Positions 10,694 through 26,005 of a DNA stretch of 64,000 nt are shown in pieces. Source of the stretch: Nocardia mangyaensis. Its GTDB lineage: Bacteria; Actinomycetota; Actinomycetes; Mycobacteriales; Mycobacteriaceae. Each line of letters begins with the position of its first letter. Positions within the stretch are counted from its first letter, which is position 1. The stretch is taken from assembly GCF_001886715.1 (NCBI RefSeq), contig NZ_CP018082.1:3410001-3474000 (forward strand), read 5' to 3'. Under the pieces are notes generated by a model. It did not search any database. It was not told where the DNA came from and was given only the letters and a program-made list of their open reading frames with translations. The translations under genes and the position numbers were made by a program.

Positions 10694-11701
10694 TCAGCAC
10701 CAGCCCGTGAGGTACATCAACCCCAGGCTGCCGGCTCCGAGGATCAGGCCGAGGACGCCGCCGAGGACCAGTGGTCGTGCGCCCGCGCTGCGCAGCCGGT
10801 CGATGCTCAGCGAGGTGCCGATCGCGGCGAGGACGACGGCTATGAGCCAACTGCTGGTGGTGGCGAGGGGGTGGGTGAGAGCAGCGGGGAGGATGTCGAG
10901 TCCCGCGATGACGGAGGCGGCGACGAACAGGACGACGAACAGCGGAAAGGCTTGACGCAGTGAGCCCGCCGGGGCACCGGTCTCCCCGGTGATGTGACGA
11001 CGCCCCACGTGCAGGCCGACGCACAGGGGGACGATGGCCAGGCTGCGGATCAACTTCACGATGACCGCGAATTGCGCGGCACCCGCACCGAAGACTACGC
11101 CCGCTGCCAGCACGGAGGAGGTGTCGTTGATCGCGGTCCCCGCCCAGAGGCCGAACGCCTCCTGCGACAGGCCGAGGGCCCGGCCCACGGGGGGATACAC
11201 CAGGACCGCGGCGACATTGAAGACGAAGATGGTGCCCAGGGCGTAGGCGACCCGCTGCCGGTCCGGCCGCAGGACCGCGGTGGCCGCCGCGATGGCGGAG
11301 GCGCCACAGATGGTGGTTCCCACCGCGACCAGAGTCGCCGATTCCCGATCGACCGCCAGCATCCGCCCGACCACGAACGCGGCGACCGCGCCGACGATGA
11401 GCGTGCCGATCAGCACGATCGCGGTCTCGCGTCCCACGCTCAGCACCGCCCCCATCGGCAATCCCAGCCCGAGCAGCACGATCGCCACCCCCAGTAGACG
11501 GCGCCGGGCGAGGTCGAGACCGGGATCGAACACCGCGTCCGCGCCCTCCCGGCGCCGAAGCAGGATTCCGGCCGCCGCGCCCCCGCCCAGTGCCAGCACC
11601 GGCGCCCCGACCATCGGTAGCGCTGTGCCGACCGGCGTGGCCACGGTGGCCACGAGTGCGGCGAGGGCGAGGCCGGGAGCGAGGGCACATGCGCGATTCA
11701 C
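10694..11701 (-). CDS. YeiH/PSE-family putative sulfate exporter
   Basis: 335 residues and about ten membrane helices, the normal size for UPF0324/YeiH proteins. Family-typical segments are LVAVGTTICGASAIAAATAVL (conserved helix with CGASAI, near 145) and the loop LWAGTAINDTSSVLAAG near 200. GTG 11701 is preferred because GAAGG precedes it; ATG codons at 11722 and 11749 lack a ribosome-binding site. The family is annotated as putative sulfate exporters, but transport has hardly been shown experimentally. It diverges from the YdcF gene. Confidence 0.8.
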   Translation of the reverse strand: MNRACALAPGLALAALVATVATPVGTALPMVGAPVLALGGGAAAGILLRRREGADAVFDPGLDLARRRLLGVAIVLLGLGLPMGAVLSVGRETAIVLIGTLIVGAVAAFVVGRMLAVDRESATLVAVGTTICGASAIAAATAVLRPDRQRVAYALGTIFVFNVAAVLVYPPVGRALGLSQEAFGLWAGTAINDTSSVLAAGVVFGAGAAQFAVIVKLIRSLAIVPLCVGLHVGRRHITGETGAPAGSLRQAFPLFVVLFVAASVIAGLDILPAALTHPLATTSSWLIAVVLAAIGTSLSIDRLRSAGARPLVLGGVLGLILGAGSLGLMYLTGWC

Positions 11702-11771
11702 CCCCTTACCTTCGCCGCGCATGGAAAGGGCAGGTAGAGGCCGAGTCATGAGGTGGGCATAAGTTGGCCTT

Positions 11772-12413
11772 ATGGCTCTTCGGGCGTGGTGGGACCCGCG
11801 ACTGTGGTTTGCTGGAGGTGTGCGGAAACGGACCCGGCTGACACTCGCCGCCGGCATCAGCGTGATGCTGTGGGGTGAATGGGCGAATTGGCGCGCCTCA
11901 CGCAGGTGGGTCGGCACCGTGCCCGCAGGGTCGGAGGCAGTCGTCGTCCTGGGCTATCGCAATGCCGGACCCGACGCCAATGCCATGAACAGGTGGCGGG
12001 TCAGGGCCGGACTTCGTTCCATCGATCCCGCCGCCGAGTCCCGGCTGGTCCTGTGCGGGGGTGCCTGCGCGGGCCCGCGGTCCGAAGCGGCGCTGATGGC
12101 GCGCTACGCGCGAGACTCCCGTGGCTACGAGGGTGAGATCGTGCTCGAGGAGTCCAGTCGATCCACCTGGGAGAACGTGGCTTTCGCGATTCCCTGTCTG
12201 AAGGATGTCGACCGGATCAAGATCGTCTCGCTGCCGACCCACGCCGAGACCGCGCGCCACTATCTCGCCGAGCAGAGTCCGGAGCTGGCCGAGCGGCTCG
12301 TCCGGGGCAAGGACTACCGGTTCGGTGAATGGATGCCACTCAAACCCGTGGTAGCGCTCTACGGCGTGGCCAAGGGTAGGCGCCGCCGAACCCGAGCCGT
12401 CGACGATGTCTGA
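11772..12413 (+). CDS. YdcF/SanA-like DUF218 protein
   Basis: 213 residues with one hydrophobic segment near 20-38, so likely membrane anchored with the domain outside. The DUF218 pattern is present: AVVVLGYRN opening strand, SRLVLCGGACAGPRSEA, LEESSRSTWENVAFA near 125-140 (the S-x-[ST]-x-E-N motif), and SLPTHAETARHYL. A GTG at 11820 is an alternative start. DUF218 proteins such as SanA and ElyC act in envelope maintenance; a similar role here is inferred only from the family. Confidence 0.8.
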   Translation: MALRAWWDPRLWFAGGVRKRTRLTLAAGISVMLWGEWANWRASRRWVGTVPAGSEAVVVLGYRNAGPDANAMNRWRVRAGLRSIDPAAESRLVLCGGACAGPRSEAALMARYARDSRGYEGEIVLEESSRSTWENVAFAIPCLKDVDRIKIVSLPTHAETARHYLAEQSPELAERLVRGKDYRFGEWMPLKPVVALYGVAKGRRRRTRAVDDV

Positions 12414-12436
12414 CACCCCCATCGCCGAACGTGCCC

Positions 12437-12442
12437 GATAAT
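12437..12442 (+). promoter_or_regulatory. -10 element suggesting a leaderless LysR transcript
   Basis: GATAAT ends six bases before the ATG at 12449, so transcription would start at or next to the A of the start codon, and there is no Shine-Dalgarno in between. A matching -35 at normal spacing is not obvious (CTGACA at 12410 is too far). Leaderless mRNAs are common in actinobacteria. Confidence 0.4.
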
Positions 12443-12448
12443 CACCCC

Positions 12449-13441
12449 ATGACGCTGCCACCCGGAACCCCTGACCTGGAGGTCCTCGACCTGCTCGTCT
12501 CGGTGGCCGCACTGGGCAGCCTCGGTGCCGCCGCCCGCCGCCACGGGATCAGTCAGCCCGCCGCGAGCATGCGGATCAGCGCGATGGAACGCCGGCTACG
12601 CGTGAAGCTGCTCGACCGCGGTCCCACCGGCTCGGAACTGACCGACGCGGGCCGGGCCGTGGTCGACCACGCGCGCACGGTGCTCGCCGCCGTGGGCGAG
12701 CTCGTCGACGAGGTGGACCGACTCCGTGCGGCCCAGGCGCCGCGACTGCGCATCGCGGCATCGAAAACCATTGCCGACCATCGGATTCCGCACTGGCTCG
12801 CCGCCCTGCGGCAGGATCACCCCGAGGTCGTCATCGCCCTGGAGGTGGAGAACTCGACCCAGGTCGCCGAACTCGTCAGGACGGGCGTGGCCGACCTCGG
12901 CTTCGTGGAGGGGCCGCATCCACCCGCCGGGCTCGGCAGCCGCGTGCTCGGCACCGACGACCTGGTCGTGGTCGTGGCCCGCGACCACCCGTGGGCGCGT
13001 CGCGAGGCCCCGGTGACGCTGCGCGAACTCGCCGCCACCGCCCTGCTCTGGCGTGAACCGGGGTCGGGCACCCGCGACACCGTGTGGGACCTGCTCAGCA
13101 CCGAGGGCCCACCGACAGGTCCGGCCGCCGAACTCGGGTCGGCGGCCGCGATTCTCGCCGCGGCCAGGACCGGCATGGCGCCCGCGGTGCTGAGCCGGTT
13201 GATCGCGGCACCGGATCTCGCCACCGGCTCCCTGGTCGCGGTCCCCACCGTCGACGTCGCCCGCCTGACCCGCAAGTTCCGGGCGATCTGGCGCCGAAAC
13301 AGCCCGCCGTCGGGGCCAGGCGAATTGCTCGTGATCCGGGCGACGCACCTCGAGCGCGCGCGCTCGGCAGTGGTGGGACTCGCCGATGAGATCGCATCGT
13401 CGCAGGTAGAGAGCTCGGACGTGAACGAGGAACTGGCGTAA
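12449..13441 (+). CDS. LysR-family transcriptional regulator
   Basis: 330 residues. The N-terminal helix-turn-helix spans about 10-68 with LGAAARRHGISQPAASMRISAMERRL, and the C-terminal ~230 residues form the periplasmic-binding-like effector domain (begins at PRLRIAASKTIADHRIPHWL, with ADLGFVEGP near 140). An upstream in-frame GTG at 12431 is possible but would lie across the -10 element. It precedes the GntR gene and the reductase operon in the same direction, so it could act on them; nothing proves that. Confidence 0.88.
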   Translation: MTLPPGTPDLEVLDLLVSVAALGSLGAAARRHGISQPAASMRISAMERRLRVKLLDRGPTGSELTDAGRAVVDHARTVLAAVGELVDEVDRLRAAQAPRLRIAASKTIADHRIPHWLAALRQDHPEVVIALEVENSTQVAELVRTGVADLGFVEGPHPPAGLGSRVLGTDDLVVVVARDHPWARREAPVTLRELAATALLWREPGSGTRDTVWDLLSTEGPPTGPAAELGSAAAILAAARTGMAPAVLSRLIAAPDLATGSLVAVPTVDVARLTRKFRAIWRRNSPPSGPGELLVIRATHLERARSAVVGLADEIASSQVESSDVNEELA

Positions 13442-13466: not shown

Positions 13467-13479
13467 CCTCGTAACGAGG
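13467..13479. promoter_or_regulatory. 13-bp palindrome upstream of GntR gene
   Basis: CCTCGT-A-ACGAGG is a perfect dyad around one central base, located 20 bp before the GntR start. Its position in the short LysR-GntR gap suits an autoregulatory operator for the GntR protein and its downstream operon. Confidence 0.4.
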
Positions 13480-13498
13480 CGTTCGGAGCATGTGCCGC

Positions 13499-14314
13499 AT
13501 GACAGCCACTCCCTTCTCCACCGCGCGGCCCCGGCCGCCCGATCCCGGCCAGAGTCGCCGCAGCGCCCCAGCCCGGCGCATCCGCGACGTTCTGCGTGCC
13601 CGCATCCGCAGCGGTGTCTATGGTGACCGCCCCCTGCCCGCCGAGGCCCAACTGGCCGCCGACTTCACCACCAGCCGCAACATCGTCCGTGACGCGCTCG
13701 CCCTCCTCCGCGACGAGGGTTTGATCGACCGTGTACCCGGTGCGGGCACCTTCGTGGTCGCGGAGAAGGCGGTGCAGGGCCTGGATCGACTGCGCGGCCT
13801 CGCCGAGACTTTCGAAACCCGCAGCGACCGGGTGGTGAACCGGGTTCTGCTCGCCGAGGTGGTCCCGGCCACGCCGTTGGTCGCCGAACGGCTCGAACTC
13901 GAATCCGGTGATCCGGTCGTCGCCCTGGAACGGGTGCGCTACCTCGACGGCACTCCGCTGTCCCTGGACGCGAGCTACCTCAGCGCCGACGTCGGTATCC
14001 CGCTGCTCGACAAGGACCTCGACGGCTGTGACGTGTTCGGCCTCCTCGAGGCAGAACTCGGTCTGCCGCTGGGCTCGGCCGCTGTCGCGATCGAAGCGGT
14101 CGCCGCGGACCCGACCGTCGCCGGGCTCCTGCAGGTCCGGGCGGGGTCCCCCCTGCTGTTCCTGGAACGGCTCACCTACACCGATTCCGGTCGCCCCGTC
14201 GACCTCGAGTACATCCGCTACCGCGGGGACCGGTTCTCGCTGTCCGGACGGCTCGACCGCATCCCGGTGACACCGCGGCGCACCGGCAACCGTGACCACA
14301 ACGAAAGGGGTTGA
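13499..14314 (+). CDS. GntR/HutC-family transcriptional regulator
   Basis: 271 residues. An N-terminal winged helix (about 25-95) has LRARIRSGVYGDRPLPAEAQLAADF as LRARIRSG and LPAEAQLAADF, then SRNIVRDALALLRDEGLIDRVPGAGTFV in shortened form NIVRDALALLRDEGL and GAGTFV. The C-terminal domain is of UTRA type with repeated VVALERVRYLDGTPL and LLFLERLTYTDSGRPVDLE signatures. ATG 13499 is chosen with CGGAG ten bases upstream; ATG 13490 is too close. It ends five bases before the AprA-like gene, and is likely the operon's local regulator responding to a small-molecule ligand. Confidence 0.9.
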   Translation: MTATPFSTARPRPPDPGQSRRSAPARRIRDVLRARIRSGVYGDRPLPAEAQLAADFTTSRNIVRDALALLRDEGLIDRVPGAGTFVVAEKAVQGLDRLRGLAETFETRSDRVVNRVLLAEVVPATPLVAERLELESGDPVVALERVRYLDGTPLSLDASYLSADVGIPLLDKDLDGCDVFGLLEAELGLPLGSAAVAIEAVAADPTVAGLLQVRAGSPLLFLERLTYTDSGRPVDLEYIRYRGDRFSLSGRLDRIPVTPRRTGNRDHNERG

Positions 14315-14319
14315 TCCCC

Positions 14320-16083
14320 ATGCAGATCCCATCGCCCACCGACCGGCGAGAACTGGTCTGTGACGTCTTGATCGTCGGCGGCGGCACCGCGGGCACCATG
14401 GCCGCCCTCACCGCCGCCCGCCACGGCGCGAACGTGCTGTTGCTGGAGAAGGCGCACGTGCGTCACTCCGGTGCGCTGGCCATGGGGATGGACGGCGTGA
14501 ACAATGCCGTGATCCCCGGCAAGGCCAGCCCCGAGGACTATGTCGCCGACATCACCGTCGCCAATGACGGCATCGTGAATCAGCGCACGGTCTATGAGAC
14601 CGCGACCCGGGGATTCGAGATGGTGCAGCGGCTCGAGGGCTACGGCGTCAAGTTCGAAAAGGACGAGCACGGCGAGTACGCGGTCCGCAAGGTGCACCGC
14701 TCCGGCTCCTACGTGCTGCCGATGCCGGAGGGTCGCGATGTGAAGAAGGTGCTGTATCGCACCCTGCGGGCCCGTGACGTGCGAGCCAAGGTGACCATCA
14801 GCAACCGGGTGATGCCGGTGCGCGTGCTCACCGTCGACGGGCGCGCGGTGGGCGCGGTCGGATTCGACACGCGCAGCGGCGAGTTCGTCACCATCTCCGC
14901 GGGCGCGGTGATCCTGGCGGCCGGAGCCTGCGGTCGGCTCGGGTTGCCCGCGTCGGGCTATCTCTACGGCACCTACGAGAACCCCACCAACGCCGGTGAC
15001 GGCTACGCGATGGCCTATCACGCGGGCGCGGAGCTGTCGGGGATCGAGTGCTTCCAGATCAATCCGCTGATCAAGGACTACAACGGGCCGGCCTGCGCCT
15101 ACGTCGCGAACCCGTTCGGCGGCTATCAGGTCAATTCCGAAGGCAATCGCTTCGTCGATTGCGATTACTGGTCCGGTCAGATGATGGCCGAGGTCAAACG
15201 GGAACTCGACAGTGCCCGCGGGCCGATCTATCTGAAACTCAGCCACCTGCCCGACGCCACGATCCGCGAGATCGAGGGCATCCTGCACACCACCGAGCGC
15301 CCGACGCGCGGCACCTTCCACGAAGGGCGCGGTACCGACTACCGCACCAAGGACATCGAGATGCACATCTCCGAGATCGGCTTGTGCAGTGGCCATTCCG
15401 CCTCGGGTGTCTGGGTCGACGAGCACGCCGCGACCACGGTGCCGGGGCTGTACGCGGCGGGTGACATGGCGCTCGTGCCGCACAACTACATGATCGGCGC
15501 GTTCGTCTACGGCGACATCGCCGGTGCGAACGCGAGTGAGTTCGGCTGTGCCGCAGCGCATCCAGAGCTGCCCGAAGACCAGATCGAGGCCGCGCACGAG
15601 TTGATCTACCGGCCGCTGCGCAACCCCGACGGTCCGCCGCAACCGCAGGTCGAATACAAGCTGCGTCGCTTCGTCAACGACTATCTGCAGCCGCCCAAGG
15701 CGCAGTCCTACCTCGCCTTGGGCGTCGAGGCATTCGAGCGGATGAACGCCGACATCGCCGCCATGAGCGGCCAGACACCCCACGAATTGATGCGCTGCGC
15801 GGAGGTGACCTTCATTCGCGACTGCGCCGAGATGGCGGCGCGCGCGTCGCTGCGCCGAACCGAAAGCCGCTGGGGGCTCTATCACCAGCGCGCCGACTGG
15901 CCCGCGCGCGACGACGCGGAATGGTTCTGCCACTTGAACCTGTATCGCGGTGCGAGCGGGGGGATGGAATTCCGCACCAGGCCGGTCGCGCCCTACATCG
16001 TGCCGGTGCCGGGGTTCACGCGGCCCGACGGCGTCGCCGATGTCGCCGCACCGGACCTCGTCGGCGCCTGGAGCGCGCGATGA
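14320..16083 (+). CDS. AprA-like flavoprotein (APS reductase/fumarate reductase superfamily)
   Basis: 587 residues. The Rossmann FAD motif is VLIVGGGTAGTMAAL with GGGTAG at 20-25. The next block, HSGALAMGMDGVNNAV (49-64) followed by PEDYVADI, resembles AprA of adenylylsulfate reductase (SGAVAxGLSAIN) more than fumarate reductase, including an asparagine at the equivalent of the AprA substrate Asn. The C-terminal FAD block has VPGLYAAGDMALVPH and a helix-rich capping domain. AAAGGGG precedes ATG 14320. It overlaps the HEAT gene by four bases and is followed by a ferredoxin of AprB type, so it probably receives electrons from that ferredoxin. Substrate unknown; sulfate-activating genes are not seen here. 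Confidence 0.8.
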   Translation: MQIPSPTDRRELVCDVLIVGGGTAGTMAALTAARHGANVLLLEKAHVRHSGALAMGMDGVNNAVIPGKASPEDYVADITVANDGIVNQRTVYETATRGFEMVQRLEGYGVKFEKDEHGEYAVRKVHRSGSYVLPMPEGRDVKKVLYRTLRARDVRAKVTISNRVMPVRVLTVDGRAVGAVGFDTRSGEFVTISAGAVILAAGACGRLGLPASGYLYGTYENPTNAGDGYAMAYHAGAELSGIECFQINPLIKDYNGPACAYVANPFGGYQVNSEGNRFVDCDYWSGQMMAEVKRELDSARGPIYLKLSHLPDATIREIEGILHTTERPTRGTFHEGRGTDYRTKDIEMHISEIGLCSGHSASGVWVDEHAATTVPGLYAAGDMALVPHNYMIGAFVYGDIAGANASEFGCAAAHPELPEDQIEAAHELIYRPLRNPDGPPQPQVEYKLRRFVNDYLQPPKAQSYLALGVEAFERMNADIAAMSGQTPHELMRCAEVTFIRDCAEMAARASLRRTESRWGLYHQRADWPARDDAEWFCHLNLYRGASGGMEFRTRPVAPYIVPVPGFTRPDGVADVAAPDLVGAWSAR

Positions 16084-16985
16084 GCGCGCGGCTGCTGGCC
16101 CTGCTCGACCTGGTCGACGAGTGTCCGGAGCTCGACGAGCTCACCCCGTTCCTCACCGACGCCGACCCGGAGGTCCGCCGCACGGCGTTGTCGGTGCTCA
16201 GCGAGACCACCGACGCGTGGGCGCGGGCGGCCCCGATCATCGCCGCGGCCCTCGCCGACGTCGACGTCGACGTCCGCCACACCGCGATCGGTCTGCTCAC
16301 CGAGTTGCTCGAGGTACTGGTGCCGGGGCCGGAGTTCGACGCCGTATTGCGCGGATGCACGACCGCACCCGAACCGGCGGTGCGCTCGGCCGCGATCGAG
16401 GCGCTGTGGCGGCACCGGCGAGTGAGCGCCGAGGAACTCGCCGGCTGGCTCACCGACCCGAACGTCGCGGTGCGCCGGACCGTCATCGGCGGGCTCACCT
16501 CCGTGGATGCGATCGATGAACTCGCCGCCGCGGCCGCCGACGACGACCAGGACGTGCGGATCGGCGTGGCGAAGGGTATCGCCGCCGTGGGCGACCCCCG
16601 CGGCGCGGTGACCCTGCTGGCCTTGGCCGAGGACCCGGAGCCGCTCGTGCGCGCCGCCGCCTTGGCGAGCCTGACCGGTACCGGCTGCGACGAACACGCC
16701 GCCGCCGTCGCCACCGCTGCCATCACCGACTCCGCCTGGCAGGTCAGGCAGGCGGCGGCGATCGCCTTGGCCGCCGCCGAGCCCGAACTCGCCGCGGCGC
16801 CGCTGCTGTCGGCGGTCTCGGACCCCAACCTCGACGTTCGCAAGGCCGCGGTGCGCGCACTGGCCGAGCGCATCGCCGAGCGCCGCGACATCACCTCCGC
16901 GCTGCAGCGGGCACTCGACGACCCGGACGCCGATGTCCGCGCCTTCGCCCGCATCGGCATCGCGAACTCTGGAAAGGAACTCTGA
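16080..16985 (+). CDS. HEAT-repeat protein of the AprA-like operon
   Basis: 301 residues composed almost wholly of about eight HEAT-like units of ~30-35 residues, each with a D-x-[DE]-V-R core: DADPEVRRTALSVL, DVDVDVRHTAIGLL, EPAVRSAAIEALWR, DPNVAVRRTVIGGL, DDQDVRIGVAKGIA, EPLVRAAALASL, SAWQVRQAAAIAL, DPNLDVRKAAVRAL, DPDADVRAFARIG. No catalytic residues are apparent. The ATGA and TGATG junctions on both sides lock it between flavoprotein and ferredoxin, implying a scaffold, assembly or electron-transfer docking role. That role is inference; PBS-lyase-type HEAT proteins can also act on cofactors. Confidence 0.85.
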   Translation: MSARLLALLDLVDECPELDELTPFLTDADPEVRRTALSVLSETTDAWARAAPIIAAALADVDVDVRHTAIGLLTELLEVLVPGPEFDAVLRGCTTAPEPAVRSAAIEALWRHRRVSAEELAGWLTDPNVAVRRTVIGGLTSVDAIDELAAAAADDDQDVRIGVAKGIAAVGDPRGAVTLLALAEDPEPLVRAAALASLTGTGCDEHAAAVATAAITDSAWQVRQAAAIALAAAEPELAAAPLLSAVSDPNLDVRKAAVRALAERIAERRDITSALQRALDDPDADVRAFARIGIANSGKEL

Positions 16986-17212
16986 TGGCCAAGGTCAACG
17001 CCCGACTCGACGTCCCCGTCTCGGTCGACGAAGCGAAGTGTATCGATGGCTGCACGCTGTGCGTGGACATGTGTCCACTCGATTCCCTTGCCATCCACCC
17101 GGATTCGGGCAAGGCGTACATGCACGTCGACGAGTGCTGGTACTGCGGGCCGTGTGCGGCGCGGTGCCCGGTCGGCGCGGTCACCGTCGACATCCCGTTC
17201 CTGTTGCGCTAG
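16985..17212 (+). CDS. 2x[4Fe-4S] ferredoxin, AprB-like
   Basis: 75 residues, two cysteine clusters: CIDGCTLCVDMCP near 19-31 (one extra residue between the first two cysteines) and CWYCGPCAARCP near 51-62, separated by a short hairpin with aromatic residues. This layout matches the Fe-S subunit of AprAB and related bacterial ferredoxins. The start overlaps the HEAT stop by one base. It is the likely direct electron donor to the flavoprotein encoded two genes upstream. Confidence 0.9.
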   Translation: MAKVNARLDVPVSVDEAKCIDGCTLCVDMCPLDSLAIHPDSGKAYMHVDECWYCGPCAARCPVGAVTVDIPFLLR

Positions 17213-17233
17213 AAGAAGAATGGATCGACGACC

Positions 17234-18655
17234 ATGAGCTCTCTCCGCCTGCGCGTATCCGCGCTGCTCCTCGGCGCCGCCGTCACCGTGTCGCTGGCCA
17301 CCGCCTGCGGTGCCGACGACGACGGCAAGACCGTTACCGTGAACATCGGCTACCAGTCCAAGACCATCAACACCGTCACCGCGGGCACGCTGCTGCGTGA
17401 TCGCGGCACCTTCGAAGCAGAGTTGGCCGAACTGGGCAAGACCACCGGTGTCACCTACCGGGTGGAGTGGAAGGACTTCGCCGCCGGACCTCCGCTGACC
17501 GCCCAGATGCTGGCCGGTCAGGTCGACATCGGATCGATGGGCGATGCCCCGATCCTGGTCAACGGCTCCAAGACCCGCGAGCACGCCGACGTGCGATCCG
17601 AACTGATCGCCGTCACCGGTTACAACCTTCGCGGATCGCTGAATCAGATCGTGGTGCCGCTGGATTCACCGGCGGCCACGCTCGCCGATCTGCGTGGGCA
17701 GGTCGTCTCGACCAGTGTCGGCTCGGCGGCGCACGGCATGCTCGCCACCGGCCTGTCCGCGGCCGGGATGACTCTCGACGACGTCCAGGTTCTCGGCCAG
17801 GATCCGGCGGTCGGGGCCTCGGCCTTGAATGGCGATCAGGTGGCGGCGCTCGCCCAGTTCGTGCCCTGGCCGCAGAAACTCGTCTTCGACGGCACCGCGC
17901 GTCTGCTCCACGATGGCGGCGCCGCGGGCATCGCGACTTTCCACGCTGTGGTGGCCAACGAGCGATTCGGCGTCGAACATCCCGAGGTGGTGACCGCTTT
18001 CCTCACTGCACAGCGGAAGACGACCGACTATCTGAACCAGCATCCGCTCGCGGCCGCCGAGCAGGTCGCGGCGGCCACCGGGCTGCCCGTCGAGGTGGTC
18101 TACCTCTACAACGGACCGAACGGCTTGGTCCACTTCGACCCGACGATCAAGCCACAGCTGGTCACGGCGCTCGGCGAGCTGCTGCCGTTCCTGCAGAGCC
18201 TGGGAGCGCTGTCGGATCTCGATCTCGGCGAGTTCGTCGACGACCGGTACCTGCGCACGGTGTACGGCGACGAATACGAGGCGGCCGCGGCCTCGGTCGA
18301 CTCGCCCGCACCGCTGACCGGGACCGACGACGCCTGTGGCGGAGCGGTCGACGGTGTGGTGACGGCCTCGGAGGTGTGGTTCACCGACTCCGAGACCACG
18401 GCCGTGGCCAAGACGCCGACGTGCCTGCTGCGCCGGATCGGGGCGAGCGCGGCGTCCGTGCGCGCGGCCTATGTCCCCGACCACGCCACCGGCATCCGGC
18501 TGTTCGCCGAGAGTGCCACCTGGGTCAGCGACCCAGGTGCCGGGCCGGAGGATCGCTTGCTGCCCTTCGCGATTCGCGCCGATGCCGAGAACTACGCCGC
18601 CGCGCGTCCCGGCACCGAGGTCATCGACTACCAGGCCGCACTGCAAGCCCGCTAG
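17234..18655 (+). CDS. ABC transporter substrate-binding lipoprotein with C-terminal NosL-like domain
   Basis: 473 residues, about 130 longer than usual NitT/TauT (SsuA-like) binding proteins. A lipoprotein signal ends in LATAC with C25 as the lipidated cysteine. Residues ~33-355 are the binding fold (VNIGYQSKTINTV, LAGQVDIGSMGDAPIL, HPEVVTAFLTAQ). Residues ~365-473 read like NosL, the copper-binding accessory lipoprotein of nitrous oxide reductase: C368-G-G, VWFTDSETTAVAKTPTC with C397, AAYVPDHATGIRL, then LLPFAIRADAENYAA. The usual NosL CGM is CGG here. It delivers substrate to the permease/ATPase encoded next. AAGAAGAATGG precedes the ATG weakly. Confidence 0.82.
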   Translation: MSSLRLRVSALLLGAAVTVSLATACGADDDGKTVTVNIGYQSKTINTVTAGTLLRDRGTFEAELAELGKTTGVTYRVEWKDFAAGPPLTAQMLAGQVDIGSMGDAPILVNGSKTREHADVRSELIAVTGYNLRGSLNQIVVPLDSPAATLADLRGQVVSTSVGSAAHGMLATGLSAAGMTLDDVQVLGQDPAVGASALNGDQVAALAQFVPWPQKLVFDGTARLLHDGGAAGIATFHAVVANERFGVEHPEVVTAFLTAQRKTTDYLNQHPLAAAEQVAAATGLPVEVVYLYNGPNGLVHFDPTIKPQLVTALGELLPFLQSLGALSDLDLGEFVDDRYLRTVYGDEYEAAAASVDSPAPLTGTDDACGGAVDGVVTASEVWFTDSETTAVAKTPTCLLRRIGASAASVRAAYVPDHATGIRLFAESATWVSDPGAGPEDRLLPFAIRADAENYAAARPGTEVIDYQAALQAR

Positions 18656-18686
18656 ATCTGTCACCGATGTGACCAGGAGGCTCATC

Positions 18687-19550
18687 ATGACCGTTTCCGC
18701 CGAACCCATCGCCGCCCCTTCGGGGGCCGCGCGGACCGCCATACCGCGCTCCGACGCGCCTACCCGTTTCGCCGTGCCACCCAGGGCCCGCCGGGCCGTG
18801 CTGACCGCGGTCCCCTTGGCCGGATTGCTCCTGGCCTGGTACCTGCTCACCACCAATCAGGTGGTGTTCTGGCTGCGTTTCGACAAGATCCCCACGCCGG
18901 CTGAGGTAGCCGACTCGCTGCGGGCCCAACTCGGCGCGGCGAGCTACTACCGCGACATCCTGGCCAGTACCCGGCGCATCCTCGTCGGCTTCGGCCTCGC
19001 GACCGTGTCCGGTGTCCTGATCGGCATGGCCGTCGGACGCTCGGCCGTGGTCAGCGCGCTGGTGCGCCCGGTGCTCGAGGTGTTCCGGCCGATCCCCGCG
19101 ATCGCGTTGGTGCCGCTGGCCATCCTGCTCTTCCCGACCGGGGAGCAGGGCATCGTGTTCATCACCTTCTTCGCCGCGTTCTTCCCGGTCGCGGTGAGCA
19201 CCATCCACGCCATGCACGCGCTGCCGCGGGTGTGGGAAGAGGCCGCGCAGACTTTGGGCGCGCGTCGGCTCGACATCCTCTTCCGGATCGCGCTGCCCGG
19301 TGCGCTGCCCGGCATCTTCTCCGGACTCTCCGTCGCCATGGGTGTGGCGTGGATCTGCGTGATCAGTGCCGAGATGATCTCGGGCCAATTCGGCATCGGC
19401 TACTTCACCTGGCAGTCCTATGGCCTGCTCGACTACCCGGGGGTGATTGTCGGGATGCTCACCATCGGCCTGCTCGGCTGGTTCACCGCGTGGTTGGTCG
19501 AGCTGGCGGGACGCCGGGTGAACCGGTGGCTGCCCAGGGCGCAGCGATGA
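18687..19550 (+). CDS. ABC transporter permease, NitT/TauT type
   Basis: 287 residues from an ATG with perfect AGGAGG six bases upstream. A ~35-residue polar N-terminus precedes six membrane helices. The EAA cytoplasmic loop is VWEEAAQTLGARRLDILFRIALPGALPG in pieces EEAAQTLGA and ALPGALPGI near 180-205, the contact to the ATPase. Sequence style matches SsuC/TauC/NrtB permeases for sulfonates, taurine, nitrate or similar anions. It overlaps the ATPase gene by ATGA. Confidence 0.92.
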   Translation: MTVSAEPIAAPSGAARTAIPRSDAPTRFAVPPRARRAVLTAVPLAGLLLAWYLLTTNQVVFWLRFDKIPTPAEVADSLRAQLGAASYYRDILASTRRILVGFGLATVSGVLIGMAVGRSAVVSALVRPVLEVFRPIPAIALVPLAILLFPTGEQGIVFITFFAAFFPVAVSTIHAMHALPRVWEEAAQTLGARRLDILFRIALPGALPGIFSGLSVAMGVAWICVISAEMISGQFGIGYFTWQSYGLLDYPGVIVGMLTIGLLGWFTAWLVELAGRRVNRWLPRAQR

Positions 19551-20302
19551 GCGCCGGTGCCGCGGTGCGGCTGGACAACCTGCGCATCGCCTACGGCGAC
19601 AGCCTGGCCGCCGAAGTGGACCTCGAGATCGACGCGGGCCAGATCGTGGTCCTGCTCGGGCCCTCCGGATGCGGCAAGTCCACCGTCTTGCGGGCGATGG
19701 CCGGCCTGCTGCCGCCGGTCGGCGGCACCGTCACCGTCGACGGTGGGCCCGCGGCGCAGCATTGCTCGATGGTGTTCCAGGAGGACGCGTTGCTGCCGTG
19801 GCGCTCCGCCGCGCGCAATGTCGAATTCGCGCTGGCGCTGCGCGGTGTCGTGCGCCGGGAGCGCCGGGGCCGAGCGCGGGAATTGCTGAACCTGGTGGGA
19901 CTCGACGGCTTCGGCGACCACCTGCCCGGTGCACTGTCGGGAGGCATGCGGCAACGGGTGCAGCTGGCTCGGACGCTGGCCGCCCGCCCTCGGGTGCTGT
20001 TGATGGACGAACCGTTCGGTGCGCTCGACGCGCAGACTCGGGCCGACATGCAACGCCTGCTCGTCTCGGTCTGGGAGCAGCGCCGGACCACGGTGTTGTT
20101 CGTCACCCACGACGTGGACGAGGCCCTGCTGCTGGCCGACCGGATCGTGCTGCTCACCCCGCGACCCGCTCGCATCCAGCGGGTCATCGAGATCGACTCG
20201 CCGCGGGCACCCGGTGCCCGGTTCGAACCCGAATTCGCGCGCCTGCGTTACGAGATCCTCGCCGCCCTCGGTGAGCCGAGCGAAAAGGAACCCCAGCCAT
20301 GA
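19547..20302 (+). CDS. ABC transporter ATP-binding protein, NitT/TauT type
   Basis: 251 residues. Walker A is GPSGCGKST (about 37-45), Q-loop VFQEDALLPWR, signature LSGGMRQR near 130, Walker B VLLMDEPFGALD and switch histidine in FVTHDVDEALLLADR. These are all intact. The stop overlaps the next ferredoxin start in an ATGA, keeping transport and redox genes in one translational unit. Confidence 0.95.
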   Translation: MSAGAAVRLDNLRIAYGDSLAAEVDLEIDAGQIVVLLGPSGCGKSTVLRAMAGLLPPVGGTVTVDGGPAAQHCSMVFQEDALLPWRSAARNVEFALALRGVVRRERRGRARELLNLVGLDGFGDHLPGALSGGMRQRVQLARTLAARPRVLLMDEPFGALDAQTRADMQRLLVSVWEQRRTTVLFVTHDVDEALLLADRIVLLTPRPARIQRVIEIDSPRAPGARFEPEFARLRYEILAALGEPSEKEPQP

Positions 20303-20634
20303 CTTTCGTCATCGGAGCCGCCTGCGTGGACGTGATGGACCGCGCCTGCGTGGAGGAATGCCCGGTCGACTGCATCTACACCGGTGACCGGATGGCCTAC
20401 ATCCACCCCACCGAATGCGTGGATTGCGGTGCCTGCGAGCCGGTCTGCCCCGTCGAGGCGATCTCCCTCGCCGGGGACGTCCCGGCGGGCCAGGAAGGTT
20501 TCGTCGCCACGAACGCGGCCTTCTTCGATACACCCTTACCCGGTCGTGACAGCGCGCTGGGCTCGCCGGGCAGCGCGGCCCAGGTCGGTGATCTCGGCGT
20601 CGATACGCCCTTCGTGGCGGAGTACGAGAAATGA
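20299..20634 (+). CDS. 7Fe ferredoxin (FdxA-like)
   Basis: 111 residues. The pattern C9-x7-C17-x3-C21-P-x2-C25 followed by CVDCGACEPVCPVEAI supports one [3Fe-4S] and one [4Fe-4S] cluster as in actinobacterial FdxA/FdxC. A ~50-residue C-terminal extension with GFVATNAAFF is normal for this group. It lies directly before the FprA gene with ATGA overlap, so electron flow NADPH to FprA to this ferredoxin (or to the AprB-like one) is the simple reading. Confidence 0.92.
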   Translation: MTFVIGAACVDVMDRACVEECPVDCIYTGDRMAYIHPTECVDCGACEPVCPVEAISLAGDVPAGQEGFVATNAAFFDTPLPGRDSALGSPGSAAQVGDLGVDTPFVAEYEK

Positions 20635-21995
20635 CCCGCCCGCTTCGCATCGCGATCGTGGGCGCGGGCCCGGCCGGTATCTACGCCGCCGACGCATTGA
20701 TGAAGTCCGACGCCGAGGTCTCGATCGACCTCTACGAACGCATGCCCGCACCGTTCGGGCTGATCCGCTACGGCGTCGCCCCCGACCACCCGCGGATCAA
20801 GGGCATCATCACCGCCCTGCACAAGGTCCTCGACAAAGACCAGGTCCGCCTGCTCGGCAACATCGACTACGGCACCGACATCACCCTCGATGACCTGCGT
20901 CAGTTCTACGACGCGGTGATCTTCTCCACCGGCGCCAACGCCGACCGCGCCTTGGCGATCCCGGGTATCGACCTCGACGGCTCCTACGGTGCCGCGGACT
21001 TCGTGTCCTGGTACGACGGGCACCCCGACGTGCCCCGCGCGTGGCCGCTGGACGCGGAAAAGGTCGCGGTCCTGGGTGTGGGCAACGTGGCCTTGGACGT
21101 GGCCCGGGTCCTGGCCAAGACCGGTGACGAGCTGCTGGCGACCGAGATCCCGCCCAACGTTTACCACGGGCTCAAGGCCAACAAGGCCGTCGAGGTCCAC
21201 GTCTTCGGCCGTCGCGGCCCCGCCCAGGCCAAGTTCACCCCCCTGGAACTGCGCGAACTCGACCATTCCCCGACCATCGAGGTCATCGTCGATCCCGAGG
21301 ACATCGACTACGACGAGGGCTCTGAAGCCGCCCGCCGTAACTCCAAGCAGGTCGACATGGTCGCCAACACCCTCGAGCAGTGGGCGATCCGTGATCAGGG
21401 TGATCGCCCGCACAAACTGTTCCTGCATTTCTTCGAGTCCCCCGCCGAGATCCTCGGCTCCGACGGCAAGGTCGTCGGGCTCAAGACCGAACGCACCCAG
21501 CTCGACGGGACCGGCAATGTCAAGGGCACCGGTGAGTTCCGGCAGTGGGATGTGCAGGCGATCTACCGGGCGGTGGGTTACCTGTCGCAGAACGTCAACC
21601 AGTTGCCCTTCGATGATCAGGCCGGCACGGTGCCCAACGAGGCCGGTCGGGTGATCGGTGATGACACCGCGCAGGGTTCGGCGCGTTTCATGCCCGCGAC
21701 CTATGTCACGGGTTGGATCAAGCGTGGTCCGGTCGGTTTGATCGGCCATACCAAGGGTGATGCCAACGAGACCATCGCCTGCCTGCTCGATGACGCCAAG
21801 GACTTCGCTCCCGCGCCCAGCCCCGAGCTCGATGCGGTGACCGAGTTCCTCGAGGGCAAGGGTATTCCGTTCACCACGTGGGCGGGCTGGTATCGCCTCG
21901 ATGCTCACGAGCGGGCGTTGGGTGAGCCCGAGGGGCGTGAACGGGTCAAGGTCGTCGAACGCGAGGACATGCTCCGCGCCAGCCTCTGCCACTGA
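20631..21995 (+). CDS. fprA: Ferredoxin--NADP+ reductase, FprA type
   Basis: 454 residues, the length of mycobacterial FprA (adrenodoxin-reductase-like). The FAD motif VGAGPAGIYAADAL lies at ~9-22, then YERMPAPFGLIRYGVAPDHP. The NADPH motif is VGVGNVALDVARVL near 147, and the C-terminal FAD contact is TGWIKRGPVGLIGHTKGDANET near 360. It transfers hydride from NADPH to FAD and on to ferredoxin. Being inside this operon, it may be a dedicated copy rather than the housekeeping one. Confidence 0.93.
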   Translation: MTRPLRIAIVGAGPAGIYAADALMKSDAEVSIDLYERMPAPFGLIRYGVAPDHPRIKGIITALHKVLDKDQVRLLGNIDYGTDITLDDLRQFYDAVIFSTGANADRALAIPGIDLDGSYGAADFVSWYDGHPDVPRAWPLDAEKVAVLGVGNVALDVARVLAKTGDELLATEIPPNVYHGLKANKAVEVHVFGRRGPAQAKFTPLELRELDHSPTIEVIVDPEDIDYDEGSEAARRNSKQVDMVANTLEQWAIRDQGDRPHKLFLHFFESPAEILGSDGKVVGLKTERTQLDGTGNVKGTGEFRQWDVQAIYRAVGYLSQNVNQLPFDDQAGTVPNEAGRVIGDDTAQGSARFMPATYVTGWIKRGPVGLIGHTKGDANETIACLLDDAKDFAPAPSPELDAVTEFLEGKGIPFTTWAGWYRLDAHERALGEPEGRERVKVVEREDMLRASLCH

Positions 21996-22006
21996 AAGGG
22001 CGATCC

Positions 22007-23152
22007 ATGCAACCACCGATTCCGACCGAACAGCAGATCAGGGCGGCGCTCGCCGGCGTCGACGATCCAGAGATCGGCCGCCCGATCACCGAACTGAACA
22101 TGGTCGAGACAGTCGTGGTCGACCCCGCGGGTGTCGTGAGTGTGCGAGTGCTGCTCACCATCGCGGGATGCCCCTTGCGCGCGAAGATCAGCGACGACAT
22201 CCGCTCCGTGGTGACCTCCCTTGCGGGGGTCACCGGCGTGGCACTCGAATTCGGCGTGATGACCGAAGCTCAGCGGCGGGAGCTGCGCACGCAGCTGCGC
22301 GGCCCCGAGGCGGAATCGGCGTCGGCGCTGGCCGCACCTGACTCGCCGACCAAGGTGTATTGCGTGGTGTCGGGAAAGGGCGGGGTCGGGAAGTCCAGCG
22401 TCACCGTCAATCTGGCCGTGGCGCTGGCGCGGCGGGGCCTGCGTGTCGGCGTCATGGACGCCGACGTCCACGGCCACTCGGTGCCCGCGCTGCTCGGCAT
22501 CACCACCGGACCGACGCTGGTCGAGCGAATGATCATGCCGCCCAGCGCCTTCGGAGTCCGAACGATTTCGATCGGCATGTTCGTCGACGGCAACGCTCCC
22601 GTGGTCTGGCGCGGACCCATGCTGCATCGCGCGCTGCAACAATTCACCAACGACGTCTACTGGGGTGAGCTGGACATCCTGCTGATCGACATGCCACCAG
22701 GCACCGGTGACATCGCGATCTCGCTGGCCCAGCTGCTGCCTGCCGCCGAACTGCTCGTGGTCACCACGCCGCAGCGCACCGCCGCCCGCATCGCCGAACG
22801 CGCGGGCGCTCTCGCCGCGCAGACCGGGCAGCGGGTAGCGGGCATCATCGAGAACATGTCCTGGTACGACACGGCCGACGGTGTGCGGCACACGCTGTTC
22901 GGCGCGGGCGGCGCCACCGCCGTCAGCCGGGCACTGAGCGCGTTGCTCGACACCCATTGCCCGGTGATCGGCCGGATACCGTTCGACCCTGTGGTCTGCG
23001 CGGCGGGTGACGAGGGCACGCCGTTCGTCGAGGCCGACCCCGGATCGGCGCCCGCCCGCGCGATCGGGGAGATCGCCGCCGCGCTCGGGCTCGGCAACAC
23101 CCGCCCGAAGCCGCGATGCCTGCTGCCGCTGATGCCGGTCGGGGCGCCGTGA
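22007..23152 (+). CDS. mrp: Mrp/ApbC-family Fe-S cluster carrier ATPase
   Basis: 381 residues. An N-terminal MIP18/DUF59 domain (about 8-85, with GRPITELNMVE and GCPLRAKI) precedes a deviant Walker A P-loop SGKGGVGKSSVTVNLA near 120, then VGVMDADVHGHSVP and IDMPPGTGDIA. The CxxC that bridges clusters between subunits in many Mrp proteins is absent at IIENMSWYDTADG; some actinobacterial members also lack it. GAAAGGG precedes ATG 22007, 11 bases after fprA. It probably loads Fe-S clusters on the ferredoxins of this operon. Confidence 0.9.
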   Translation: MQPPIPTEQQIRAALAGVDDPEIGRPITELNMVETVVVDPAGVVSVRVLLTIAGCPLRAKISDDIRSVVTSLAGVTGVALEFGVMTEAQRRELRTQLRGPEAESASALAAPDSPTKVYCVVSGKGGVGKSSVTVNLAVALARRGLRVGVMDADVHGHSVPALLGITTGPTLVERMIMPPSAFGVRTISIGMFVDGNAPVVWRGPMLHRALQQFTNDVYWGELDILLIDMPPGTGDIAISLAQLLPAAELLVVTTPQRTAARIAERAGALAAQTGQRVAGIIENMSWYDTADGVRHTLFGAGGATAVSRALSALLDTHCPVIGRIPFDPVVCAAGDEGTPFVEADPGSAPARAIGEIAAALGLGNTRPKPRCLLPLMPVGAP

Positions 23153-23262: not shown

Positions 23263-23278
23263 TGTGGAGGTTGGATCA

Positions 23279-24109
23279 ATGACGGTCGAGATCGTGACCG
23301 AGCCCGCGCCGGATGAGTTGTGGAGCGGATCGGGCCGGGAGACTGCCACACCGCCGACGTCGATGATCGAGCGGATGACGCTCATCCTCGACGCCTTCGA
23401 CTCGACCACCCCTTCCCTCACCCTGCTCGGCCTGTCCGAACGTACGGGGCTCCCACGGTCGACCGTGCACCGCATCCTCGACCAGATGATCCGGCTGCGC
23501 TGGCTCGCACACACCCCCGGCGGCTATCGGCTCGGCCTGCGAGTGCTGGAACTGGGCGGTCTCGCCGCCGAGCACAACGAGCTGCGCGAGGTGGTCGGCC
23601 CGCTGCTCTACGACCTCAGCCAGCGCACCGGCCTGATCGGGCACCTGGCCGTGCTGGACGGCCGCGAGGTGCTGATCCTCGACCGGGCAGGCGGACGCAG
23701 TCGCGTGGCGATCCCGACGCGGGTCGGCGGGCGCCTGCCCGCGCACTGCACCGCGGTCGGCAAGGCGTTGCTGGCGACCCTGGAACCGGGCATCGCCGAG
23801 GCCTCGCTGCGTGGCAGCACCGCGCGCACGGCCCGCACCATTGTCGACCGCGCCGAACTGCACCGTGAACTGGCCCGCATCCGCAATCGGCAGGGCGTGG
23901 CCGTCGACACCGAGGAATCGCTGCCCGGCGTCGCCTGCGTGGCGGTGCCGATCCGCGGACGCGGAGTCGCGCTGGCGGCGATCTCGCTGTCGGGCACCGT
24001 CAACGGCGAGCGCAGCGCGCTCGACACCGCCCGCCTCGCCCGTGCCCTCGCCGAGGTCGCCAAGGAGGCGTCGCGGGCCCTCGCACCCCGGCACGGACGC
24101 CCCCATTAG
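23279..24109 (+). CDS. IclR-family transcriptional regulator
   Basis: 276 residues from ATG 23279 with GGAGG eight bases upstream. The N-terminal winged helix (about 30-90) has LTLLGLSERTGLPRSTVHRIL and a wing GGYRLGLRVLELG. The C-terminal effector domain has VLDGREVLILDRAGGRSR, LPAHCTAVGKALLA and GVAVDTEESLPGVACVAVPI, all typical. It follows the Mrp gene after ~125 bp with its own dyad-rich promoter, and may control the upstream operon by acting at a distance or only itself. Confidence 0.9.
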   Translation: MTVEIVTEPAPDELWSGSGRETATPPTSMIERMTLILDAFDSTTPSLTLLGLSERTGLPRSTVHRILDQMIRLRWLAHTPGGYRLGLRVLELGGLAAEHNELREVVGPLLYDLSQRTGLIGHLAVLDGREVLILDRAGGRSRVAIPTRVGGRLPAHCTAVGKALLATLEPGIAEASLRGSTARTARTIVDRAELHRELARIRNRQGVAVDTEESLPGVACVAVPIRGRGVALAAISLSGTVNGERSALDTARLARALAEVAKEASRALAPRHGRPH

Positions 24110-24118
24110 CCGCGGGAG

Positions 24119-25813
24119 TCAGCCCCGAGCGCGGCGCGCCATCGCACGTCCGGCCGCACGTCCGGAGAAGATGCAGCCGCCGAGGAACGTGCCCTCCAGC
24201 GCGTTGTAACCGTGCACGCCGCCACCGCCGAAACCGGCGACCTCACCGGCCGCGTACAGCCCTGACAAGACCGCGCCGTCCGGACGCAGCACCTGGGAAT
24301 CCAGGTCGGTCTGCAAGCCGCCGAGGGTCTTTCGGGTCAGGATGTTCAGGCGCACCGCGATGAGCGGGCCGTGCGCGGGATCGAGGATGCGGTGCGGCTT
24401 GACGACCCGGCCCGCCTTGTCGCCGATGTACCTGCGCGCGTTGCCGATCGCGGCCAGTTGCGCGTCCTTGGTGTAGGCATTGGTCACCTCGCGGTCCCTG
24501 GCCACGATCTGGCGCTCGAGTTCGGCGGCGTCGAGCCGGGGCCCGCGCGCGATGGCGTTCATCCCGTCGACGAGCTCGGTCAGCGAATCGGCGACGACGA
24601 AGTCCACCCCGTGCTGCTTGAACGCCTCCACCGGACCCGGCGCGCCCTTGGCCAGCCTGCTGCGCAGGGTGAGTTTCAGGTCCTTGCCGGTGATGTCGGG
24701 ATTCTGCTCCGAGCCCGAGAGCGCGAACTCCTTCTCGATGATCGTCTGGTCCAGCACGAACCACGAGTAGTCATAGCCGGTGGACAGGATCTGGCGCATG
24801 GTGGCATTGGTGTCGAAGCCGGGAAAACACGGTGCGGGCAACCGAATACCGTTGGCGTCGAACCACAGTGACGACGGGCCGGGAATGATCCGGATGGCGT
24901 GATCGGGCCAGACCGGATCCCAGTTGTTGATCCCCTCGGTGTAGTGCCACATCCGGTCGCGATTGACCAGCGCCGCGCCGGCCTGCTCGGAGATGCCGAG
25001 CATCCGGCCGTCCACAGAGGCGGGCACGCCCGAGATCATCGTCTCCGGGCACGGGCCGAGGCGTTCGGTGGGCCAGTTGCGTCGGATCAGGTCGTGCGCG
25101 TGCCCGATCCCGCCCGAACTCACCAGCACCGACGGTGCGTGGACGCTGAACTCGCCCAGCACATCCCGGTTCGAGGCCACACCGCGTTCAGTCTCGCTGG
25201 GTGCGAGCACGCTACCGGTGACCCCGGTGACCGCACCGTCCTCGACGATCAGTTCGTCGACCCGATGCCGGAACGCGAAGCGCACCAGGCCGCGCGCCTC
25301 ACCGGCCAGCACAGGCTCGAGGAAGACCCGGACCACTTCGGGTCCGGTACCCCAGGTCAGGTGGAAGCGGGGGACCGAGTTGCCGTGCCCGTCGGCCAGG
25401 CCGCCACCGCGCTCGGCCCAGCCGACCAGCGGTGTGAATCGCAATCCCAAGGCGTGCAGGTAATCCCGCTTCTCCTCGGTCGCGAACCGGACATAGGCGC
25501 GGGCCCACTCGCGAGCCATCCGGTCCTCGTCGTCGCGATCGAAACCCGCCGAACCCAGCCAATCCTGGAGCGCGAGTTCATAGGAGTCCTTGACACCGAG
25601 ACGGCGCTGCTCCGGGCTGTCGACCAGGAACAGTCCGCCCAGCGACCAGAACGCCTGACCACCGAGATTGGCGCGGTTCTCCTGATCGAGGACGAGCACC
25701 TTGCGCCCGGCCAGCACGAGTTCGTGCGTGGCCACCAGTCCCGCCAGTCCGGCGCCGACGACGATCGCGTCGGGGGTGAAGTCATCGGTGGGTGTTGGCG
25801 CTGCGCTCGACAT
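24119..25813 (-). CDS. FAD-binding dehydrogenase, KstD/Rv0785-like
   Basis: 564 residues. The FAD motif AIVVGAGLAGLVATHEL is at ~17-33, followed by VLDQENRANLGGQAFWSLGG. The C-terminal FAD block is LSGLYAAGEVAGFGGGGVHGYNALEGTFLGGC near 515-545 (cited in parts GLYAAGEVAGFGGGG and NALEGTFLGGC). This is the length and style of the actinobacterial FAD-binding dehydrogenases related to 3-ketosteroid delta-1-dehydrogenase and fumarate reductase. Substrate unknown; steroid genes are not adjacent. ATG 25813 lacks a clear Shine-Dalgarno. The gene is convergent with the IclR gene nine bases away. Confidence 0.85.
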   Translation of the reverse strand: MSSAAPTPTDDFTPDAIVVGAGLAGLVATHELVLAGRKVLVLDQENRANLGGQAFWSLGGLFLVDSPEQRRLGVKDSYELALQDWLGSAGFDRDDEDRMAREWARAYVRFATEEKRDYLHALGLRFTPLVGWAERGGGLADGHGNSVPRFHLTWGTGPEVVRVFLEPVLAGEARGLVRFAFRHRVDELIVEDGAVTGVTGSVLAPSETERGVASNRDVLGEFSVHAPSVLVSSGGIGHAHDLIRRNWPTERLGPCPETMISGVPASVDGRMLGISEQAGAALVNRDRMWHYTEGINNWDPVWPDHAIRIIPGPSSLWFDANGIRLPAPCFPGFDTNATMRQILSTGYDYSWFVLDQTIIEKEFALSGSEQNPDITGKDLKLTLRSRLAKGAPGPVEAFKQHGVDFVVADSLTELVDGMNAIARGPRLDAAELERQIVARDREVTNAYTKDAQLAAIGNARRYIGDKAGRVVKPHRILDPAHGPLIAVRLNILTRKTLGGLQTDLDSQVLRPDGAVLSGLYAAGEVAGFGGGGVHGYNALEGTFLGGCIFSGRAAGRAMARRARG

Positions 25814-26005
25814 GTCAGGAACGTAGCATTCGCGCGCGGTCGGGCGGGACGATTCGAGACGTAACCGTGGCTCGACAGATGCCGACTGCAGGCCGTATCG
25901 CTGCAGGTCAGCGGGTATTCCGTGAGTGAGCACACCGAATGTCGTTGTGGCAGGCGGTGATCGCTCGTTCTCTATTTCTCACAACGGCGTGAGTGGGTGG
26001 GCACG

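Follow-up and report, generated by a model that had tools for sequence, protein, structure and literature searches.

The window examined here, a 64,000-nt stretch of Nocardia mangyaensis DNA (NZ_CP018082.1, 3,410,001-3,474,000; coordinates below are window positions), carries on its plus strand an operon of ten contiguous genes (13490-23152) in which a flavin adenine dinucleotide (FAD) flavoprotein resembling adenosine 5'-phosphosulfate (APS) and 3'-phosphoadenosine 5'-phosphosulfate (PAPS) reductases is accompanied by ferredoxins, a ferredoxin reductase and an ATP-binding cassette (ABC) importer with its substrate-binding protein (SBP). Neighbouring genes overlap by 1-4 bases or lie 5-28 bases apart, and the tightly packed, GntR-led operon described in a first-pass annotation of the sequence is borne out, with the expected families throughout:

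13490-14314, plus strand: GntR/UTRA regulator (Pfam UTRA 128.7 bits, GntR 51.5)
14320-16083, plus strand: FAD flavoprotein, AprA/PAPS-reductase-like alpha subunit (gap of 5 after GntR; NF010374, NF006131)
16080-16985, plus strand: HEAT-repeat protein (overlap 4; Pfam HEAT_2 145 bits)
16985-17212, plus strand: 2[4Fe-4S] ferredoxin of 75 aa, beta-like subunit (overlap 1; Pfam Fer4_7 38.4 bits)
17234-18655, plus strand: SsuA-like (NMT1/SsuA-type) SBP with a C-terminal NosL-like domain (gap 21)
about 18684-19550, start codon uncertain, plus strand: ABC permease of TauC/NtrB type (gap 28; Pfam BPD_transp_1 84.5 bits; NCBIfam)
19547-20302, plus strand: ABC ATPase of TauB/SsuB type (overlap 4; ABC_tran 106.4 bits; NF008421 229 bits, below its cut-off of 357)
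20299-20634, plus strand: 7Fe ferredoxin FdxA (overlap 4; NF045480 FdxA_Actino 145.5 bits, over its cut-off of 125)
20631-21995, plus strand: NADPH:ferredoxin reductase FprA (overlap 4; PDB 1lqt FprA 309.6 bits)
22007-23152, plus strand: Mrp/ApbC-type Fe-S carrier ATPase (gap 11; Pfam ParA/NUBPL 268.7 bits, FeS_assembly_P 64.7)

The composition of the unit emerges from 98 further loci in three phyla, namely the best 80 of at least 589 actinobacterial matches, whose counts describe close relatives, and 18 loci from a plasmid collection; counts over 99 loci include both L104 and L107, which overlap each other, and partners were detected by bit-score thresholds that miss some annotated ones (HEAT of L091 and L104). 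Near the flavoprotein gene lie relatives of the 2[4Fe-4S] ferredoxin in 95 of the 98, of HEAT in 94, the SBP in 88, the permease in 90 and the ATPase in 92, and 85 loci keep all five. Among the 13 incomplete loci, five (L010, L011, L032, L071, L073) sit on short contigs or at the end of a contig, those lacking this importer type appear genuine (L021, L042, L095, L101, L106), L019 has an apparently broken SBP and L104 has its importer genes on the opposite strand. A GntR/UTRA relative is present in 82 loci, the 7Fe ferredoxin in 11, Mrp in nine and FprA in three. The conserved core is thus six genes (flavoprotein, 2[4Fe-4S] ferredoxin, HEAT and three ABC importer genes), and the nine-gene set earlier proposed as the unit is not conserved: FdxA, FprA and Mrp stand outside the core, with KorAB, an Nfn-like enzyme or DUF971 found elsewhere. 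Likewise, of 59 genomes of the genus, counting this one, 44 have the flavoprotein; a full-length SBP is present in all 44 and in none of the 15 others. Comparison of the two sets of matches places an SBP within about 5 kb of 44 of the 46 flavoprotein genes, and the other two (genomes G304, G347) have theirs on different contigs of draft assemblies. The first-pass annotation would have given up the unit had the genes rarely been found together; they are together in most loci. Full-length SBPs with no adjoining flavoprotein occur at G050:C12:16712-18106 and G349:C133:3652-5019. Prevalence across the phylum is patchy, the model cut-off being passed in 8 of 296 genomes, and some genomes hold two copies at 91-96% and 76-77% identity (G303, G350; Nocardia salmonicida, L001 and L051). 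On a Tsukamurella plasmid (L089, 14275-18561) the operon sits beside genes for a nucleotidyltransferase, ThiF, Mov34 and SAVED that by annotation resemble a CBASS defence locus.

The flavoprotein has the Pfam architecture FAD_binding_2 plus Succ_DH_flav_C and exceeds the cut-offs of NF010374 (PRK13800; 1207.7 bits against 1196) and NF006131 (PRK08275; 895.5 against 587). It falls well short of the aprA equivalog TIGR02061 (140.1 against 641.75) and of the PAPS-reductase-type NF005331 (PRK06854; 267.8 against 557). Among solved structures it comes closest to 8a8o, a FAD-dependent PAPS reductase from Methanothermococcus (190 bits), so that the label AprA-like holds for the architecture, which is of AprA/PAPS reductase type, and fails for the nearest characterised relative. 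In the tree proposed at first pass, the family forms a separate clade outside both AprA/PAPS reductase and Sdh/Frd, with no firm branching with a known enzyme; the sister group is left unsettled, as grouping with AprA/PAPS reductase has support of 81/52 and long branches meet there.

Aligned with three reference chains, 99 members of the family (82 actinobacterial, the window's own included) give 176 invariant columns. The positions compared are Asn74, Trp234, Arg265 and His398 of AprA and His242, Arg286 and Arg399 of SdhA, which we take to have active-site roles. The SGALAMGMDGVNN block is present at residues 50-62, and its Asn61 aligns with AprA Asn74; His359 aligns with the PAPS reductase GGH motif (AprA position His398). 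Tyr219 and Leu250, both invariant in the 99 rows, stand at the Trp234 and Arg265 positions; Asn248 stands at SdhA His242, and the positions of SdhA Arg286 and Arg399 are not Arg. The APS/PAPS reductase recognition loop (Lys120-Arg121-Ser122), whose part in substrate recognition is described in the available text of PMC10322725, is replaced in the family by KVHxxGxYVLPMP. To judge from these residues, the family keeps the shared architecture around a conserved substrate site of its own type. The Asn block had been read as a hint of a sulfo- or oxyanion-type substrate; the block is there, but with other AprA active-site positions changed it does not fix the substrate. Identity as an APS or PAPS reductase was rejected on the missed cut-offs, the differing loop residues and the lack of linkage to sulfate-activation genes, and identity as a fumarate or succinate enzyme on the three SdhA positions. 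The predicted structure is poor in the active site, with a predicted local distance difference test score below 50 in several loops. A second flavoprotein of fumarate reductase fold, a PRK12834-type FAD-binding dehydrogenase (962 bits), lies near the operon at 24119-25933 on the minus strand, beyond an IclR gene (23264-24109).

The HEAT protein aligns to positions 610-896 of PRK13800, and in 71 of the 98 loci it is joined to the flavoprotein C-terminus in one chain. The best PDB matches of the 75-aa ferredoxin are polyferredoxins (65.5 bits), followed by AprB and the PAPS reductase beta subunit (28.6-32.8 bits); the AprB C-terminal domain PF12139 has no match in this genome and none in the control genomes. 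Among the ligands that hold the sulfonate head in SsuA, Gln36 and Gly68 are kept in all 18 SBPs compared, and the Gly86 position is Gly or Ala. Further, two loci without this SBP type (L095, L106) have a canonical SsuA instead, over the TIGR01728 cut-off. The extra SBP domain noticed at first pass is present and is now described as NosL-like: among seven C-terminal fragments searched with NosL PF05573 (cut-off 24 bits), the window's gave no match, and NosL was the best match of the other six, over cut-off in one (L090, 32.9 bits).

The electron supply is most informative in the nine loci of window-type layout (the window and L001-L008), all of which have FdxA. In the slot behind it, three have FprA (window, L001, L002; the L001 copy is cut at a contig end) and five (L003, L004, L006, L007, L008) have a KorAB-type 2-oxoacid:ferredoxin oxidoreductase; L005 has neither. 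The window's FprA, matched to 1lqt over residues 3-452, is a true FprA, and in L003 KorA scores 633 bits over a cut-off of 483, KorB 249 against 262, with 268.7 bits to PDB 6n2n. On the A. caldus plasmid pTcM1, the gene after fdxA encodes a GltD/DHODB-type protein of 1153 aa with a weak resemblance to Nfn (PRK06567 607 against a cut-off of 1072; NfnI alpha 60 bits). Given that three different ferredoxin reducers occupy one slot, the flavoprotein complex very probably works in the reductive direction; together with the importer in the core, this exchange supports the earlier idea of an import-and-reduction module fed by reduced ferredoxin. The presumed Fe-S helper varies as well: Mrp occurs in seven of the nine window-type and three cyanobacterial loci, DUF971 in ten loci from proteobacteria, and no locus has both. 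In Nocardia testacea (L033, 12016-13596) a separate FdxA-FprA-like pair (45% and 36%) lies on the opposite strand directly downstream of a fused flavoprotein-HEAT gene.

Two genes upstream of GntR place the window's operon in a setting of possible sulfite handling:

10694-11917, minus strand: YeiH-family putative sulfite/sulfate exporter (TIGR00698 122.6 bits, below its cut-off of 232.6)
12431-13441, plus strand: LysR regulator whose nearest NCBIfam model is YeiE (NF040889 160 bits; cut-off of 480 not reached)

The YeiH gene is the only PF03601 match of the genome; it lies beyond the LysR gene, at a distance of 1.6 kb from GntR on the upstream side. A gap of 48 bases separates the end of the LysR gene from GntR, and both are on the plus strand, so the operon transcript may begin at the LysR gene. 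In Salmonella, according to the available text of PMC12880088, YeiE is a sulfite-binding protein and YeiH confers resistance to sulfite. YeiH relatives lie near six of the nine window-type and two of the three cyanobacterial loci, a YeiE-like LysR relative in six of the nine, and TauE/SafE near 4 of the 17 non-actinobacterial loci (L090, L093, L096, L099); the sulfite-handling context is lineage-bound. Flanks of 10 of the 80 actinobacterial loci contain luciferase-like monooxygenase (LLM) relatives, at 16 places in 1.01 Mb; the 40 control stretches, taken from four genomes and 0.8 Mb in total, contain none. The ten include the source of two queries and several related Nocardia. SsuA-like genes number 3 against 0, TauD 1 (the query's own locus) against 0, and TauE 0 against 0. 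A general enrichment of organosulfur genes around the loci is suggestive only. The importer-less L021 (7008-14952) has a sulfatase and a TauD-family gene nearby, the sulfatase lying in a masked stretch outside the flank count, and the importer-less L042 (13647-16424) has two luciferase-like monooxygenases. On a Nostoc edaphicum plasmid (L095, 9611-17330), two HAD hydrolases, a methyltransferase, a GNAT protein and a Fos-like VOC protein are encoded between flavoprotein and ferredoxin, and GNAT and amidase genes follow Mrp; Methylocystis L094 likewise has GNAT and amidase genes nearby. These inserted and flanking genes are a possible clue to substrate or product.

Sat and CysH relatives are absent from all 99 loci; the host genome has CysH and CysD elsewhere, with an adjoining sulfite reductase gene recognised by eye. 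A parallel case, built on the same plan, is seen at L108 (4830-12029, actinobacterial genome G233), an apparent sulfate-assimilation operon with a PAPS-reductase-type AprAB (698.6 bits to 8a8o), SsuB/SsuC-type transporter relatives and, by eye, an ATP sulfurylase and a sulfite-reductase-like gene; its specificity loop reads R-W-N, as against K-R-S in Methanothermococcus and Q-W-Q in A. fulgidus, and either APS or PAPS could be its substrate. The lack of an activation step around the present family, unlike L108, fits a substrate that already bears a sulfo group.

In light of these observations, ferredoxin-driven reductive release of sulfite from an imported sulfonate-type compound is a proposal with about an even chance of being right. 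Its parts differ in strength: a sulfonate-class substrate is somewhat probable, the earlier hint of a sulfo-type compound being favoured by the SBP and the neighbour genes, and flavin-sulfite chemistry, the weakest step, could equally well be right or wrong. The SsuA-like lipoprotein and its ABC transporter would import a small sulfonate-type anion, and electrons would pass from NADPH through FprA, the 7Fe ferredoxin and the 2[4Fe-4S] subunit to the FAD of the flavoprotein, whose reduced flavin would attack the sulfur and release sulfite, as proposed for AprA and PAPS reductase. An ordinary sulfite reductase encoded elsewhere in the genome would then convert sulfite to sulfide. The roles that we infer for the accessory proteins are that HEAT would serve as a structural subunit and Mrp as Fe-S cluster loader, and that the YeiE-like LysR would sense surplus sulfite and YeiH would export it.

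Several points weigh against this proposal. An unactivated C-SO3 bond offers a poor leaving group for such chemistry, and with the changes of Arg265 to Leu250 and Trp234 to Tyr219 the known AprA mechanism is not simply transferable. The window's SBP misses the SsuA cut-off (TIGR01728, 127.3 bits against 163.5), the 18 SBPs have Ala or Thr at SsuA Ser141 (an invariant Ser stands immediately before), and the tail pocket reads VPW where SsuA has DPW; in a fold search covering SBP residues 30-356, and so not the C-terminal domain, SsuA-fold proteins also included binders of nitrate, bicarbonate, taurine, thiamine precursors and pyrroloquinoline quinone. Similarly, YeiH lies near just one of the 73 other actinobacterial loci (L015), a TauE relative near none of the 80, and CysDN genes lie within about 10 kb in 2 of the 99, both Nocardia (L018, 18920-21171; L037, 15942-18154). 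With its active site altered, and with plain sulfonates offering so poor a leaving group, the enzyme could instead act on activated sulfonates, sulfamates, thiosulfonates or a sulfur-free substrate.

A sulfur-free reading would make the flavoprotein a hydride-transfer reductase acting on a C=C or similar bond of an organic anion or vitamin precursor, as do the fumarate, urocanate and related reductases of its fold. This is unlikely, given that the fumarate-type residues are absent (Asn248 for SdhA H242, no Arg at R286 or R399), that the ferredoxin subunit and the loop around VPHNYM are AprA-like, and that sulfite exporters and a canonical SsuA occur in some neighbourhoods. Sulfite release might instead be right while plain alkanesulfonates are no substrates, the sulfur being carried on a better leaving group: in thiosulfate itself, in organic thiosulfates or thiosulfonates, in a sulfamate or in a sulfonate activated by an alpha-carbonyl. 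Flavin N5 would attack the sulfur of such compounds more readily on chemical grounds, and A. caldus, a sulfur oxidiser, has the module on a plasmid; against this, two loci have canonical aliphatic-sulfonate SBPs and the neighbourhoods inspected contain no thiosulfate-annotated gene, which leaves the idea rather improbable.

If the enzyme were a disguised assimilatory APS or PAPS reductase, the closest solved relative and the same transporter type at L108 would be accounted for, but the PRK06854 and aprA cut-offs are missed, recognition residues are absent, Sat, CysH and CysDN are lacking or nearly so around the loci and the genome has its own CysH; this explanation is highly improbable. Oxidative enzymes of the fold, NadB and SdhA, offer a precedent for a dehydrogenase that reduces ferredoxin; with FprA, KorAB and an Nfn-like enzyme in the FdxA-adjacent slot, such a role is very unlikely.

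Several known systems bear comparison with the present family. With dissimilatory AprAB it shares the architecture, the Asn at the N74 position and a PH(K/N)(F/Y) loop, and it differs in the missed TIGR02061 cut-off, in the Leu and Tyr replacements and in a ferredoxin of just 75 aa. SsuABC with SsuD/SsuE has the same SBP fold, some of the same sulfonate-head residues and sulfite as product, which here is only proposed; the NosL-like domain is additional, and a probable reductase replaces the oxygenase, the kind of enzyme through which aerobic sulfonate use is known to proceed. Relative to the FAD/2[4Fe-4S] PAPS reductase of M. thermolithotrophicus (8a8o; PMC10322725), other residues stand in for the recognition loop and for the FAD-side Trp/Tyr pair, a HEAT subunit and a dedicated importer are added, the clade is separate and the operon lacks sulfate activation genes. 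In NCBIfam, PRK13800 (flavoprotein and HEAT in one chain) and PRK08275 already cover the family, under the name fumarate reductase/succinate dehydrogenase flavoprotein subunit, which implies a function whose residues are absent here. Further, the available text of PMC12375680 (2025) describes on A. caldus plasmids a ferredoxin/APS reductase/GntR module with a TauT-type transporter and predicts organosulfonate assimilation; this module appears to be the ortholog at L104 and L107, which differs from the window in taking electrons from the Nfn-like enzyme and, on pTcM1 (L107, 5552-11325), in having its transporter genes on the opposite strand, where an ISL3-family element separates the permease side from a shortened SBP gene. 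The first-pass term undescribed was consequently too strong, and what this analysis contributes is a defined conserved core, the exchange of ferredoxin reducers between loci, the NosL-like domain and the replacement of the SBP by a canonical SsuA. Experimental work on the function of the operon was not among the matches listed in open-literature searches; PMC10433963, PMC7661421 and PMC8557817 have no bearing on it.

More broadly, it is conceivable, if somewhat doubtful, that bacteria in at least three phyla, including many aerobes, split sulfite off organosulfonates that they import, using an oxygen-independent, ferredoxin-driven flavoenzyme of AprA/PAPS reductase type that forms a third arm of the superfamily. 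To our knowledge, such desulfonation chemistry is not known from oxygenases, lyases or glycyl radical enzymes. The module is a compact test bed for substrate change in AprA-type flavoenzymes. If the proposal is true, a widespread family named after fumarate reductase would in fact serve sulfur acquisition in soil, plant-associated and photosynthetic bacteria, and its reductive route, working without oxygen, would bear on the cycling of sulfonates and perhaps on sulfonated pollutants.

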